Below are positions 51,306-56,616 of a stretch of DNA of 64,000 bases, in pieces. Origin of the DNA: Roseovarius sp. (GTDB lineage Bacteria > Pseudomonadota > Alphaproteobacteria > Rhodobacterales > Rhodobacteraceae); assembly GCA_021775255.1 (NCBI GenBank), contig JAJFIA010000001.1:62001-126000 (forward strand). The letters are read 5' to 3'. Positions within the stretch are counted from its first letter, which is position 1. Every line of letters begins with the position of its first letter. Below the pieces are notes generated by a model. It was given only the letters and a program-made list of their open reading frames with translations. It was not told the DNA's origin and searched no databases. The position numbers were made by a program, and so were the translations under genes.

Positions 51306-51384
51306 CTGGTGCTGAGTGTCCTCTCGCATCGGGATTGACTTCCTCCCTGTCAGACTGGCCGCGCCTTCGGGTGCGGCCTTTTTT
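51306..51384 (+). ncRNA. Candidate trans-acting sRNA, resembling the alphaproteobacterial MmgR/suhB (alpha-r8) type
   Basis: -10-like TATAAA at 51294; hairpin tgctgag-tgtcct-ctcgca; hairpin ttgac-ttcctccct-gtcag; cUUCGg-capped terminator ggccgcgcc-ttcg-ggtgcggcc followed by T6; no ORF. Confidence 0.6.
51357..51384 (+). terminator. Rho-independent terminator with UUCG tetraloop
   Basis: ggccgcgccttcgggtgcggcctttttt. Confidence 0.9.
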
Positions 51385-51448
51385 ATTCACACTGGCTCAC
51401 ATTGCATTTTTACTGTTGACCCAAGGGGATAACTGCCCTAGCGTCCGA

Positions 51449-51511
51449 GAAATAATCAAGTCGGCCAGTCCGGCAGGGAGAGACCTGAGAAGAGGCCGAA
51501 TGGCCTCTTTT
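51449..51511 (+). ncRNA. Second candidate sRNA in tandem, antisense-complementary to the core of the first
   Basis: TTGACC at 51416 and a CTAG-containing -10 region ~16 nt later; hairpin cagg-gagaga-cctg; terminator agaggcc-gaat-ggcctct with U-rich tail. Confidence 0.5.
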
Positions 51512-51670
51512 CTGCTTTTTGGCTCTCTGGTTTAGCTGCTCTCAACTCAACTTCATGATGAAACGGGGGATTCCCGCCGGGCGCGACACCCTATCGCATT
51601 CTTTTTACCTGACATGCTGCCCACATCATGCTAGAGCGCCCAAAGATCAATCAAACCGGATGGGGAACAC

Positions 51671-52387: not shown

Positions 52388-53599
52388 TCAGGCAATCTTT
52401 CGCAGGGCCAGAACGGCATTCAGCCCGCCAAAGGCAAAGGCATTTGACAGCGCCACATCGACGCGCGCCTCACGCGCCTCATTGGGCACCACATCCAGCG
52501 CGCATTCCGGGTCCGGCTCCTGATAGCCAATGGTGGGCGCGATAATGCCATCACGAAGCGCCATGATACAGGCCAGCAATTCCACCGCCCCGGTGCCGCC
52601 AATAAGGTGGCCGTGCATGGATTTGGTTGAACTGATCATCAGCCGGTCGGCATGCTGGCCAAACACATCTGCCACGGCCGCGCATTCGGTTTTGTCATTC
52701 GCCGCCGTGCCGGTGCCATGGGCATTGATATAGCCCACCTCATCGAGATTGATCCTTGCATCATGAAGCGCGCCGGCTATCGCCCGGGCGGCCCCCTGTT
52801 TTGAGGGTGTCACAATATCCGAGGCATCCGATGACATGGCGTATCCCGCGACCTCGGCCAGAATTTCCGCACCGCGCTTGCGGGCATGGTCATAATCCTC
52901 AAACACGAATATGCCCGCGCCCTCGCCCTGTACCATACCGTTGCGATTGGCCGAAAACGGGCGGCAGCCGTCTTTTGACATGACGCGCAAGCCCTCCCAT
53001 GCCTTGACCCCGCCAAAACACAGCATCGATTCCGAGCCGCCCGTGACCATCACCGGTGTTATCCCGCCATGCACCATCTGAAACGCCTGCGCCATCGCGT
53101 GATTGGACGAGGCACAGGCGGTTGAAACCGTATAGCTAGGCCCCTTGAGGTTATACTCCATCGACACATGGCTGGCGGCGGCATTGTTCATCAGCTTGGG
53201 CACCACAAACGGATGCACCCGGTTTTTGCCATCCTCATAAACCGTGCGGTAATTTTCATCGAGCGTTGTCATGCCACCCCCGGAATTGCCCAGAATCACC
53301 CCGGCCTTTGTTGCCAGATCACCGGTAAATTCCAGCCCTGATTGCGCAATCGCCTCGCGCGCGGCAATCAGGGTAAATTGTGTAAAACGGTCATAAAGTG
53401 CAAGCTGCTGCCGGTTGAAGGCCGCGGCCGGGTCATATTCCCTGACTTGCCCGCCAATCCGGATCGACAGGCGCTCGACATCCCGAAATTCCAGATCAGT
53501 AATGCCACTGCGGCCCTCACGCATGGCCTCTAATGTTGTTGCTACACTGGTACCAAGCGCATTGATCGTGCCCGCGCCGGTGATGACAACCCGTTTCAA
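52388..53599 (-). CDS. Beta-ketoacyl-ACP synthase (FabF-like)
   Basis: YTVSTACASSNHA active-site Cys; INAHGTGTAANDKTE; STKSMHGHLIGGTGAVE. Confidence 0.95.
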   Translation of the reverse strand: MKRVVITGAGTINALGTSVATTLEAMREGRSGITDLEFRDVERLSIRIGGQVREYDPAAAFNRQQLALYDRFTQFTLIAAREAIAQSGLEFTGDLATKAGVILGNSGGGMTTLDENYRTVYEDGKNRVHPFVVPKLMNNAAASHVSMEYNLKGPSYTVSTACASSNHAMAQAFQMVHGGITPVMVTGGSESMLCFGGVKAWEGLRVMSKDGCRPFSANRNGMVQGEGAGIFVFEDYDHARKRGAEILAEVAGYAMSSDASDIVTPSKQGAARAIAGALHDARINLDEVGYINAHGTGTAANDKTECAAVADVFGQHADRLMISSTKSMHGHLIGGTGAVELLACIMALRDGIIAPTIGYQEPDPECALDVVPNEAREARVDVALSNAFAFGGLNAVLALRKIA

Positions 53600-53853
53600 T
53601 TCAGCGCTTTCACCAGCTTTTCAATGCCGGAAATGATGCTGGAAACCGATGAGATGTCAAAATCCGTGTTTTTGGGTTCATTGGCATTGAAGGGGATTGA
53701 AATATCAAACTCCTCCTCAATCGCGAAAATGCTTTCCACCAGCCCAAGGCTGTCTATGCCCAATTCTTCCAATGTATTACCAGAGGTCACATCAGACGGA
53801 TCAAGCACCGCCTGTTCGGCGATGATCCGGATAACGCGGGTTTCGATGTCCAT
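53596..53853 (-). CDS. Specialised acyl carrier protein
   Basis: LEELGIDSLGLVESIFAIEEEFDISIPFNANE, phosphopantetheine Ser in GIDSL; coupled to KAS. Confidence 0.9.
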   Translation of the reverse strand: MDIETRVIRIIAEQAVLDPSDVTSGNTLEELGIDSLGLVESIFAIEEEFDISIPFNANEPKNTDFDISSVSSIISGIEKLVKALN

Positions 53854-53888
53854 GAATTACACCCTCATATCTTGTCTGTGCGGCTGAT

Positions 53889-54980
53889 CTACTCGTTTGG
53901 CGGACGATTTGAAACAGCTTTCTTCAGGTTTTGCACATCCGAAGTCAGGCGTTTGAGGCGTCGCAGATTTTTATAAATGCTCAACTGAATGTTCATTCTG
54001 GTGGCCGGGTATCCCAGCATCACCTGACCCTTGGGGATATTTGACAGCACAATCGTGCCGCCACCGGTGACCACATTATCCCCGATACTCAGGTGATCAC
54101 CCACCCCTGTCTTGCCGGCCAACACAACATTTTTGCCAATTCTGGTGGAACCGGCGATGCCAACGCAACCGCATAGCAGGCTGTTTTCACCAATCTCGCA
54201 ATTATGGCCAACCATCACCAGATTATCAATTTTCGTGCCGTTGCCGATGCGGGTATCGCGGATGGTGCCCCGGTCAATCGTGCTGTTTGCACCAAGCTCG
54301 ACATCATCGCCGATCGCCACAGCGCCAAGGCTGTGAATGCGGGTCCAGCTTGGGGCATTTGTCTTGTCCCGCTCGTCCAGGGTTTGGCGCATCTCTTCCA
54401 TCAATGATGTATCCTGCGTCACATAAGAAAAGCCATCCCCCCCGACAATCGCCCCCGGCTGCGCCCTGAACCGCGCACCGATCCTGACCCGAGCGCCGAT
54501 CCTGACCCCTTCCCGCATATATCCATCGGGGCCAATCACAGCATCTGCGCCAATAAAGCATTGCGGCCCGATCACCGTTCCCGCACCGATCCTAGCACCT
54601 TTGCAGATTACCGCCAAAGGCCCGACAGATACCCCTGCGCCCAGATCAGCGCTTGCATCTATCACCGCAGTATCGTGAATGCCCGTGCCCCAGCCCTGCC
54701 CCGGATCCATCATCCGGGTAAGGCCCGCAAGCGCAGGCCGCGGCCGGGGGACAAGGAGGGCCGCCTCAAGCCCGAAATCCCGCCAGTTGGCCCCTTGCCA
54801 AAGCATTGCACAGCGGGCCGCGCCCCGGCTCAGCATTTCAGCATAATCAGGCGTCATTGCCAGCGCCAGATCATCCGGGCCCGCATCTGCGGGCTCGGCG
54901 GCGCCGGTCACTTTCAAATCGGCGGCGCCAACGATCTCCGCCCCAAGCGCCAGCGCTATTTCATGAAGAGTAATGGCCAT
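53889..54980 (-). CDS. lpxD: UDP-3-O-acylglucosamine N-acyltransferase (LpxD family)
   Basis: LpxD N-terminal domain plus hexapeptide repeats; DNLVMVGHNCEIGENSLLCGCVGIAGSTRIG with putative catalytic His. Confidence 0.92.
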   Translation of the reverse strand: MAITLHEIALALGAEIVGAADLKVTGAAEPADAGPDDLALAMTPDYAEMLSRGAARCAMLWQGANWRDFGLEAALLVPRPRPALAGLTRMMDPGQGWGTGIHDTAVIDASADLGAGVSVGPLAVICKGARIGAGTVIGPQCFIGADAVIGPDGYMREGVRIGARVRIGARFRAQPGAIVGGDGFSYVTQDTSLMEEMRQTLDERDKTNAPSWTRIHSLGAVAIGDDVELGANSTIDRGTIRDTRIGNGTKIDNLVMVGHNCEIGENSLLCGCVGIAGSTRIGKNVVLAGKTGVGDHLSIGDNVVTGGGTIVLSNIPKGQVMLGYPATRMNIQLSIYKNLRRLKRLTSDVQNLKKAVSNRPPNE

Positions 54981-55011
54981 GGATACCCCCCGGTCTGGGG
55001 CGTGTTTATCC

Positions 55012-56616
55012 TTATGCAGCAGGTTGCGAAACCCCCGCATTTACCAGAGCCTTCCAGATCAATCCATCGCGGCCATAAACATCACGACGGTACTGCATAT
55101 GACCTTTGGCGCGGGTAAAGGCGGTGCGGTAGATGATATGCACCGGCACATGTTGTTCCAGTTCGATTATCGTTTCACGACCGGTATCAAGATGCGCCTT
55201 GAAAACCTGTTGCGGATTCTTTTCCTGTTTCGACAGCAGTTCATAAGCAAACTCAAACGGCTGTTGCAGGCGGATGCAGCCATGGCTGAAATCGCGTTTT
55301 TCGCGGGCAAACAGGTTTTTCGCAGGGGTGTCATGCAGATAGATATTATGCTTGTTGGGGAACATGAACTTGACCAGACCCAACGCATTGCGCCGTGAAG
55401 GCGGCTGCTTGATATCAAACGGAAAATTGCTTGTGGAAAAGGCGTTGAAATCAACAACCGAGCGATCAATCACCTGCCCGCGCGCATTATAAATCCGCAT
55501 ATGCCCCGCCGCATTGGGGTTGCGTTTCAACATTGGCAGGTATTCCTTCACCGCGATCGAGCGCGGCACGTTCCAGGTGGGGTTGACCACCATGAATTCC
55601 ATCATATCGGAAAATTCCGGGCTGCGCCGGTCATAAGCGTTTTTACCCACCACCGCGCGGGTTTCAAATGTCACGTTGTCATTGTCGATGATGCGGGCGC
55701 TGAAATCGGTGAGATTCACCAGAACATGGCGCTTGCCGCGCTCCTGATTCATCCACCGCTCCCGCTCCATCGCAACAATCACCGTTTGCAGCCGGTATTG
55801 CATGGGTTTGTTGATTTCAGCCATGGTGCCCGGTCCAACCGTACCATCAGGCGTCAGGCCGTGATCCTGCTGAAACATCTGCACCGCTTTTTGCACTTTG
55901 CCGTCATATGTCGTGACCGAGTTGCGCCCCATATATTCCATTGAAATCAGGCGGTTACGCAGCGCAATTACAGCATCCCCCGTGGCCCCGGGTTTAAGCG
56001 ATTTACCCGGCACCAATGGCCCCCATCCGCCTTTTGCGATCAACCGCTCCAACCGCTGCTTTTCTTTCAGCAGGCGGGCATATTCATTGGTGTTGGGCGG
56101 CAAGGCGCGAAAGAAACTCTTGGGATTGTCTTTGCTGATCGCGGTGAGATAGCTCACACGGCTGCGATACGGCACCTGACGCTGAATGCCGCTGTCAATA
56201 TCTGAGGGGATCAGCACGCCGGTCTGCATGTCGCGCGACAGGAGCAGGAATACCCGGCTCATCTCAACCTCGACAAAGCCGCGTTGCCGCGGGGTTTTGG
56301 CGGCTTTCATCCGGGCCATCAGCCCATCGGCATCATAGCGGGCAACCGGCAGGCCATGCACATCCGCCGAGCCAATCGCACGGATCAGTTCCTGGCGGCG
56401 ACGGCGGTCATTGCTGCTGTTGCCAGTCCAGATGCCGGTATAGCCATTTGATTTATAAAAGGCAGCAATATCACGATCTTTTGCCGCGGCTTCGGCAATC
56501 GCCTGTTTGAAGGCGGTTACCTGTGCGTCGGCCGGTTTTGCATTCCAGAAGCTTCCAACAAGAAGCGTCAGGGACAAAAACAACATCCCCATGAAACGGC
56601 TATGAATCTTCTGCAT
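55012..56616 (-). CDS. L,D-transpeptidase (YcbB/LdtD-like) with peptidoglycan-binding domain
   Basis: VVNPTWNVPRSIAVKEYLP; NIYLHDTPAKNLFAREKRDFSHGCIRLQQP (SHGCIR catalytic motif). Confidence 0.95.
   Translation of the reverse strand: MQKIHSRFMGMLFLSLTLLVGSFWNAKPADAQVTAFKQAIAEAAAKDRDIAAFYKSNGYTGIWTGNSSNDRRRRQELIRAIGSADVHGLPVARYDADGLMARMKAAKTPRQRGFVEVEMSRVFLLLSRDMQTGVLIPSDIDSGIQRQVPYRSRVSYLTAISKDNPKSFFRALPPNTNEYARLLKEKQRLERLIAKGGWGPLVPGKSLKPGATGDAVIALRNRLISMEYMGRNSVTTYDGKVQKAVQMFQQDHGLTPDGTVGPGTMAEINKPMQYRLQTVIVAMERERWMNQERGKRHVLVNLTDFSARIIDNDNVTFETRAVVGKNAYDRRSPEFSDMMEFMVVNPTWNVPRSIAVKEYLPMLKRNPNAAGHMRIYNARGQVIDRSVVDFNAFSTSNFPFDIKQPPSRRNALGLVKFMFPNKHNIYLHDTPAKNLFAREKRDFSHGCIRLQQPFEFAYELLSKQEKNPQQVFKAHLDTGRETIIELEQHVPVHIIYRTAFTRAKGHMQYRRDVYGRDGLIWKALVNAGVSQPAA

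Follow-up and report, generated by a model that had tools for sequence, protein, structure and literature searches.

Genomic context and features of the locus

The window (the whole stretch of 64,000 nucleotides of Roseovarius sp. DNA that was analysed) was found to contain two units on the + strand, here termed RNA1 and RNA2, in the gap between a HerA_C gene (PF05872) on the minus strand and an IalB gene (PF06776) (Table 1). This agrees with the first-pass annotation of this DNA, which had described two terminator-ended units between a HerA-like gene and ialB, and the two complementary 19-mers that it reported, one in each unit, were located exactly where it had placed them. Elsewhere in the window (52388-55040, minus strand), ORFs resembling those for a ketoacyl synthase, an acyl carrier protein and an LpxD-like protein lie in a row, and their translations suggest a cluster for lipid or lipid A acylation.

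Table 1. Features of the RNA1/RNA2 locus, with their positions in the window
Feature	Position	Strand	Remarks
Conserved block upstream of RNA1, GAACATACnnnnTTAA...GCCAGTnTGAA	51264-51300	+	35-genome alignment
RNA1, alphaR8/cuckoo-type sRNA	51306-51384	+	Rfam matches below cut-off; conserved fold; z-score -3.7
RNA1 core, CTCCCTGTCAGACTGGCCG	51343-51361	+	C/U-rich stretch and foot of terminator stem; near-invariant
RNA1 intrinsic terminator and T tail	51357-51384	+	Hairpin 51357-51378; conserved
RNA2 promoter, TTGACC, 17-nt spacer, TAGCGT	51416-51444	+	Conserved genus-wide and family-wide
RNA2, proposed sponge RNA	51451-51517	+	Covariance model; end at T tail
RNA2 5' hairpin, GUCGG-CCAGU-CCGGC	51460-51474	+	U.G/U-A/C-G at one pair
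RNA2 anti-core, CGGCCAGTCCGGCAGGGAG	51462-51480	+	Predicted to pair with RNA1 core and trans siblings
RNA2 intrinsic terminator and T-rich tail	51487-51522	+	Hairpin 51487-51512; strong stem covariation

RNA1 is an alphaR8/cuckoo-type sRNA by motif and architecture

SorX, SorY and CcsR belong to the well-studied stress sRNAs found in photosynthetic Rhodobacteraceae. Comparison of RNA1 to Rfam gave matches to SorX (RF02784; 32.5 bits, E=4e-5, gathering cut-off 46.6), SorY (RF02651; 29.8 bits, cut-off 111) and mmgR (RF00519; 22.7 bits, cut-off 41). Because these scores fall below the respective gathering cut-offs, RNA1 can be classed by its core motif and architecture as an alphaR8/cuckoo-type sRNA, rather than being assigned to Rfam SorX. 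The alphaR8 type is recognized by a single-stranded UUUCCUCCCU-type core that follows a weak hairpin and is itself followed by a Rho-independent terminator (PMC12559287). RNA1 carries CUUCCUCCCU at 51339-51348, which has one difference from UUUCCUCCCU, with a hairpin before this core and a terminator after it. The same order, namely a 5' stem-loop, the CUUCCUCCCUGU core and a terminator, was identified in an alignment of 35 members of the genus, in which the 5' stem-loop is backed by two-sided pair changes.

The conserved block upstream of RNA1, which can also be written as GAACATAC....TTAA....GCCAGT.TGAA, is situated 17 nt upstream of the HerA start, and a sigma-70 scan of it found no site. 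It is the probable promoter region of RNA1 and is possibly common to RNA1 and the divergent HerA gene.

RNA2 has a promoter and terminator of its own

RNA2 matched no Rfam family at E<=1. Its start was placed at approximately 51451 (plus or minus 2) by promoter spacing, and its end by the T tail; the start near 51449 proposed in the first-pass annotation is thus close to, if not quite at, the likely position. The promoter has the consensus TTGACS-N17-TAGCGT, with the 17-nt spacer occurring in 35/35 members of the genus and kept with few exceptions among 160 distinct family sequences; TTGACG/C was present in 155 of these, and T-13/A-12/T-8 were each conserved at 93-95%. It appears to be sigma-70-like, with TTG at -36 and T-13/A-12 being also compatible with RpoH-type recognition, as judged from logos for R. 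sphaeroides (PMC3441632). The 5' hairpin was found to have 99-100% of its cells paired. Bounded family-wide by its own conserved promoter and terminator, RNA2 has, at the sequence level, the character of an independent unit that is typical of sponge RNAs, and we infer that it is transcribed independently.

A small ORF within RNA2 was considered and rejected; an AUG with a short frame occurs in Rhodobacter-like copies and is absent from the RNA2 copy in the window and from most others. In three Rhodobacter-like loci (L114, L123 and L127) RNA2 begins with AUGAAGUCGGCC, with a short peptide frame readable in some copies and no conservation of this frame at other loci.

Distribution of RNA2

The RNA2 covariance model matched 167 of 199 Rhodobacteraceae genomes (one per genus) and 184 of 198 genomes drawn from the order, with all 184 belonging to Rhodobacteraceae (among the named matches, e.g. 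Roseovarius, Ruegeria, Jannaschia, Shimia and Tabrizicola). No genuine match was found in 284 alphaproteobacteria outside this family, the sole match beyond it among 289 class-wide genomes (G649, weak) being rejected as the terminator hairpin that follows a coding sequence. A predicted RNA2-type gene is carried by nearly all Rhodobacteraceae.

Related genomes that keep RNA1 and lose RNA2 or its complementarity had been named in the first-pass annotation as evidence that would speak against a functional pair. Instead, five genomes scored as RNA2-negative (G326, G272, G297, G161 and G340) were found to hold diverged copies of RNA2 adjoining RNA1, which still pair with it at -34 to -36 kcal/mol, and loss of RNA2 is overestimated because of such copies. 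The apparent loss in genera g48, g127 and g254 was likewise rejected, with several cases being misses of the model in which diverged copies were found by eye. RNA2 was not found by the model search in genus g146 (G180, G304 and G366), of which G180 and G366 possess an alphaR8-like sRNA with CCTCCCTGTTGGACTTAGGCCGAG despite having no RNA2 match. Nine genomes (G075, G102, G133, G165, G177, G195, G210, G234 and G236) gave two matches each to the RNA2 model, possibly reflecting a second sponge copy or a terminator-only match.

Complementarity between RNA1 and RNA2

In antiparallel alignment, the cores of RNA1 and RNA2 pair at 18 of 19 positions, comprising 17 Watson-Crick pairs and one U.G pair with a single A.C mismatch, which bears out the complementarity of 17/19 plus one G-U pair counted in the first-pass annotation. 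Loci were paired through covariance-model matches, with pairing based on regex being discarded because the reverse strand of a pair mimics a pair. Across 114 local RNA1/RNA2 pairs the core duplex had a median energy of -38.5 kcal/mol and was at or below -25 kcal/mol in 112, while shuffled RNA2 (3420 shuffles) gave a median of -16.3 and a best value of -32.4 kcal/mol. For the pair of the window, the net gain after the opening of structures was -13.3, against a shuffled median of -4.6 and a best of -17.9 among 200 shuffles; the energy of this single pair alone is not decisive, because net values of -16 to -18 kcal/mol also occur among shuffled controls. The complementarity is nonetheless beyond chance, because conservation extends genus-wide for both units and family-wide for RNA2.

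The A.C mismatch is itself conserved, with position 10 being unpaired in 100/114 pairs. Compensatory changes, for which the first-pass annotation had suggested looking, were not found to be general. When RNA2 was permuted among genomes and the paired cells counted, no excess of co-variation between the two arms was detected (2034 paired cells compared to a permuted mean of 2033.5). There is therefore no statistical evidence for co-evolution of the neighbours, and the pairing appears to be maintained mainly through sequence conservation of both sides. Isolated matched changes (an extra T/A in L037 and GAAC/GUUC in L281) suggest compensatory change in a few single cases. Where pairs are broken (L112 and L277), the RNA1 core has changed and RNA2 is unchanged or still like the complement of the sibling consensus.

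Pairing of RNA2 with trans-encoded siblings

RNA1 was found upstream on the same strand in 73 of 90 sampled RNA2 loci, a ratio that is not an unbiased frequency since the loci were selected for good RNA2 matches. At a minimum of 17 loci, RNA2 and its promoter are kept with no detectable local RNA1 (L127, counted among these, may hold an RNA1 remnant). All five RNA1-less genomes examined possess trans siblings bearing CCTCCCTGTTGGACT cores, which pair with RNA2 at -34 to -43 kcal/mol; for 14 trans siblings the range was -33 to -43 kcal/mol. As in the sponge class, RNA2 is complementary to the cores of multiple siblings (RNA1 and these 14), and its pairing with trans SorX-type siblings is about equal to, and often stronger than, that with RNA1. 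SorX-type matches above the cut-off were identified in 152/199 genomes of the family. Two more siblings are encoded in the source genome, at C1:407172 (SorX 51 bits, above the cut-off) and C26:34037 (43 bits), for which the net gain with RNA2 was -18.2 and -13.0, respectively, beside that of -13.3 for RNA1, with shuffles again reaching -16 to -18.

The C of RNA2 that lies opposite the unpaired A of RNA1 forms a G-C pair with most siblings, although RNA2's own hairpin also needs this C, and that need could likewise explain why it is conserved. In one genome (G082) the RNA1 core has decayed and RNA2 is still a near complement of the sibling consensus; the partner there is putative, with no SorX match at E<=1e-10. 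The target of RNA2 is probably the whole SorX-type sibling family, because RNA2 is kept without RNA1, pairs in trans and has the mismatch only with RNA1, together with the net gain and the case of G082. RNA1 is probably not the main target.

Proposed role of RNA2 and alternative explanations

The feature is real and conserved, and it is likely that RNA2 is an independently transcribed sponge (anti-sRNA) for RNA1 and, mainly, for alphaR8/SorX-type siblings encoded in trans. The suggestion of an sRNA with a neighbouring antisense decoy or sponge made in the first-pass annotation survives as the best-supported reading, but its RNA1-specific form needs widening to the sibling family, with RNA2 not being specific to its neighbour and pairing equally with trans siblings. 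According to the proposed mechanism, the purine-rich GGGAG/GGGGAG segment of RNA2 and its 5' hairpin would mimic a ribosome-binding site, and RNA2 would form a duplex of approximately 19 nt with alphaR8/SorX-type sRNAs at their CUCCCUGUYGGACUGGCC-type core, hiding the mRNA-targeting (anti-Shine-Dalgarno) stretch of its partners and invading each partner's terminator stem at its foot. The local RNA1 would be one target, but siblings encoded in trans would probably be the main ones, and induction of RNA2 would lower sibling activity, resulting in derepression of sibling target mRNAs. Hfq dependence, the direction of regulation, RNA decay and the inducing condition are steps that we infer as part of this sponge model.

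Support for a sponge at the sequence level comes from gene anatomy, conservation, complementarity and the retention of RNA2 without RNA1, and a precedent exists in CrfA of Caulobacter, by which SisA-D are inactivated through pairing at this same alphaR8 core (PMC12559287); by analogy with CrfA, RNA2 would act by sequestering RNA1 and the sibling sRNAs. The absence of statistical co-variation between the arms and the putative status of the G082 partner weigh against it, as do the net energies attained by shuffled controls and the chance that RNA2 acts on mRNAs directly. A single readthrough transcript, in which a long-range hairpin between RNA1 and RNA2 would control termination, processing or stability, had also been raised in the first-pass annotation. 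The segments would pair in cis, and the MFE fold of the joined 212-nt transcript forms the helix, but the near-invariant promoter between the units (~160 distinct sequences), the strong RNA1 terminator, the varying spacing (47-297 nt in 73 pairs) and the retention of RNA2 with no detectable RNA1 render this highly improbable, with promoter conservation and RNA1-less loci ruling it out as a general function. That RNA2 is a dedicated antagonist of adjacent RNA1 only, in a co-evolving cis-linked pair, would suit the 73/90 loci with RNA1 upstream and the single matched changes in L037 and L281. Such exclusive pairing is disfavoured and quite unlikely, given that RNA2 persists without RNA1, that overall covariation is absent and that the conserved mismatch occurs with RNA1 and not with siblings.

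Alternatively, RNA2 may regulate mRNAs directly, and a wobble-pattern scan of the source genome for targets gave other near-matches genome-wide. These near-matches would accord with an RNA2 that is primarily mRNA-targeting, as would the RNA2 core, which is very strongly conserved even at loci that lack RNA1 or have a degenerate one; the alphaR8 sRNAs would then serve as sponges of RNA2, or the complementarity would be a product of inverted-duplication ancestry. This explanation is given a low probability, as the GGGAG/GGGGAG segment resembles a ribosome-binding-site mimic and not a typical mRNA seed, and the complementarity covers the whole conserved core of trans siblings. A proposal compatible with a sponge role, if itself rather doubtful, is that RNA2 of Rhodobacteraceae and StsR of R. 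sphaeroides are orthologs. StsR is of similar size (72 nt), is under stress control by RpoHI/RpoHII and has a mutant in which SorX and SorY levels are higher (PMC8307010); the RpoH-compatible positions of the RNA2 promoter would fit this. However, the stsR mutant has lowered, not raised, CcsR levels, and the pairing of RNA2 with the targets reported for StsR did not clearly exceed that of shuffles in relatives, whether with mraZ/UpsM leaders or with rpoE start regions (of orthologs located with an RpoE protein query, which had no other use). If RNA2 is StsR, the RNA is already known and only the sponge role would be new.

Comparison with known systems

To our knowledge, sponging of alphaR8 sRNAs is known from one species, since 2025. 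CrfA of Caulobacter crescentus pairs with the alphaR8 core of SisA-D, reduces SisA-D levels in an Hfq-assisted manner and relieves SisA-D targets of repression (PMC12559287). Among known systems this is the closest to RNA2, and it follows the same logic: a small RNA that forms a unit of its own has a G/A-rich stretch with complementarity to the UUUCCUCCCU core found in several alphaR8 siblings. No homology between the two was detected, as judged indirectly from the RNA2 model search of the 284 alphaproteobacteria outside the family. RNA2 (~65 nt) further differs in usually lying downstream of one partner (~50-300 nt) and in pairing over ~19 nt, into the partner's terminator foot, and, whereas the CrfA sponge was shown experimentally, RNA2 is a sponge predicted from sequence.

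The chances are about even that RNA2 acts throughout the Rhodobacteraceae as a master sponge which has no relation to CrfA and which governs the activity of every SorX/SorY/CcsR-type stress sRNA simultaneously. Were this true, alphaproteobacteria would have evolved dedicated anti-alphaR8-core sponges on two or more separate occasions, in the Rhodobacteraceae case in linkage with one target, and sponging of alphaR8 sRNAs would be a recurrent strategy. A conserved antagonist of SorX, SorY and CcsR would constitute a missing layer of control, with an sRNA pool switched off by one tiny RNA.

QrrX of Vibrio cholerae, a sponge of the Qrr sibling sRNAs (as described in PMC12559287, from which the comparison was made), is likewise a dedicated sponge for a sibling sRNA family, although the RNAs are unrelated. 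StsR, compared by description and pairing tests, is similar to RNA2 in size and stress-type control and is reported to act on a fellow sRNA, UpsM, but the targets described for it (UpsM, rpoE) differ. SorX, SorY and CcsR1-4 of R. sphaeroides, mmgR/alphaR8 and the cuckoo RNAs have in common with RNA1 and its siblings a CCUCCCUGU(U)GGACU-type core and a terminator, while RNA1 differs from SorX/SorY/CcsR1-4 and mmgR in its 5' stem-loop and locus. The loop of this 5' stem (51316-51327, UGUCCUCU) was nearly invariant in the 35 genomes and forms a second C/U-rich, anti-Shine-Dalgarno-like stretch, situated outside the region covered by RNA2.
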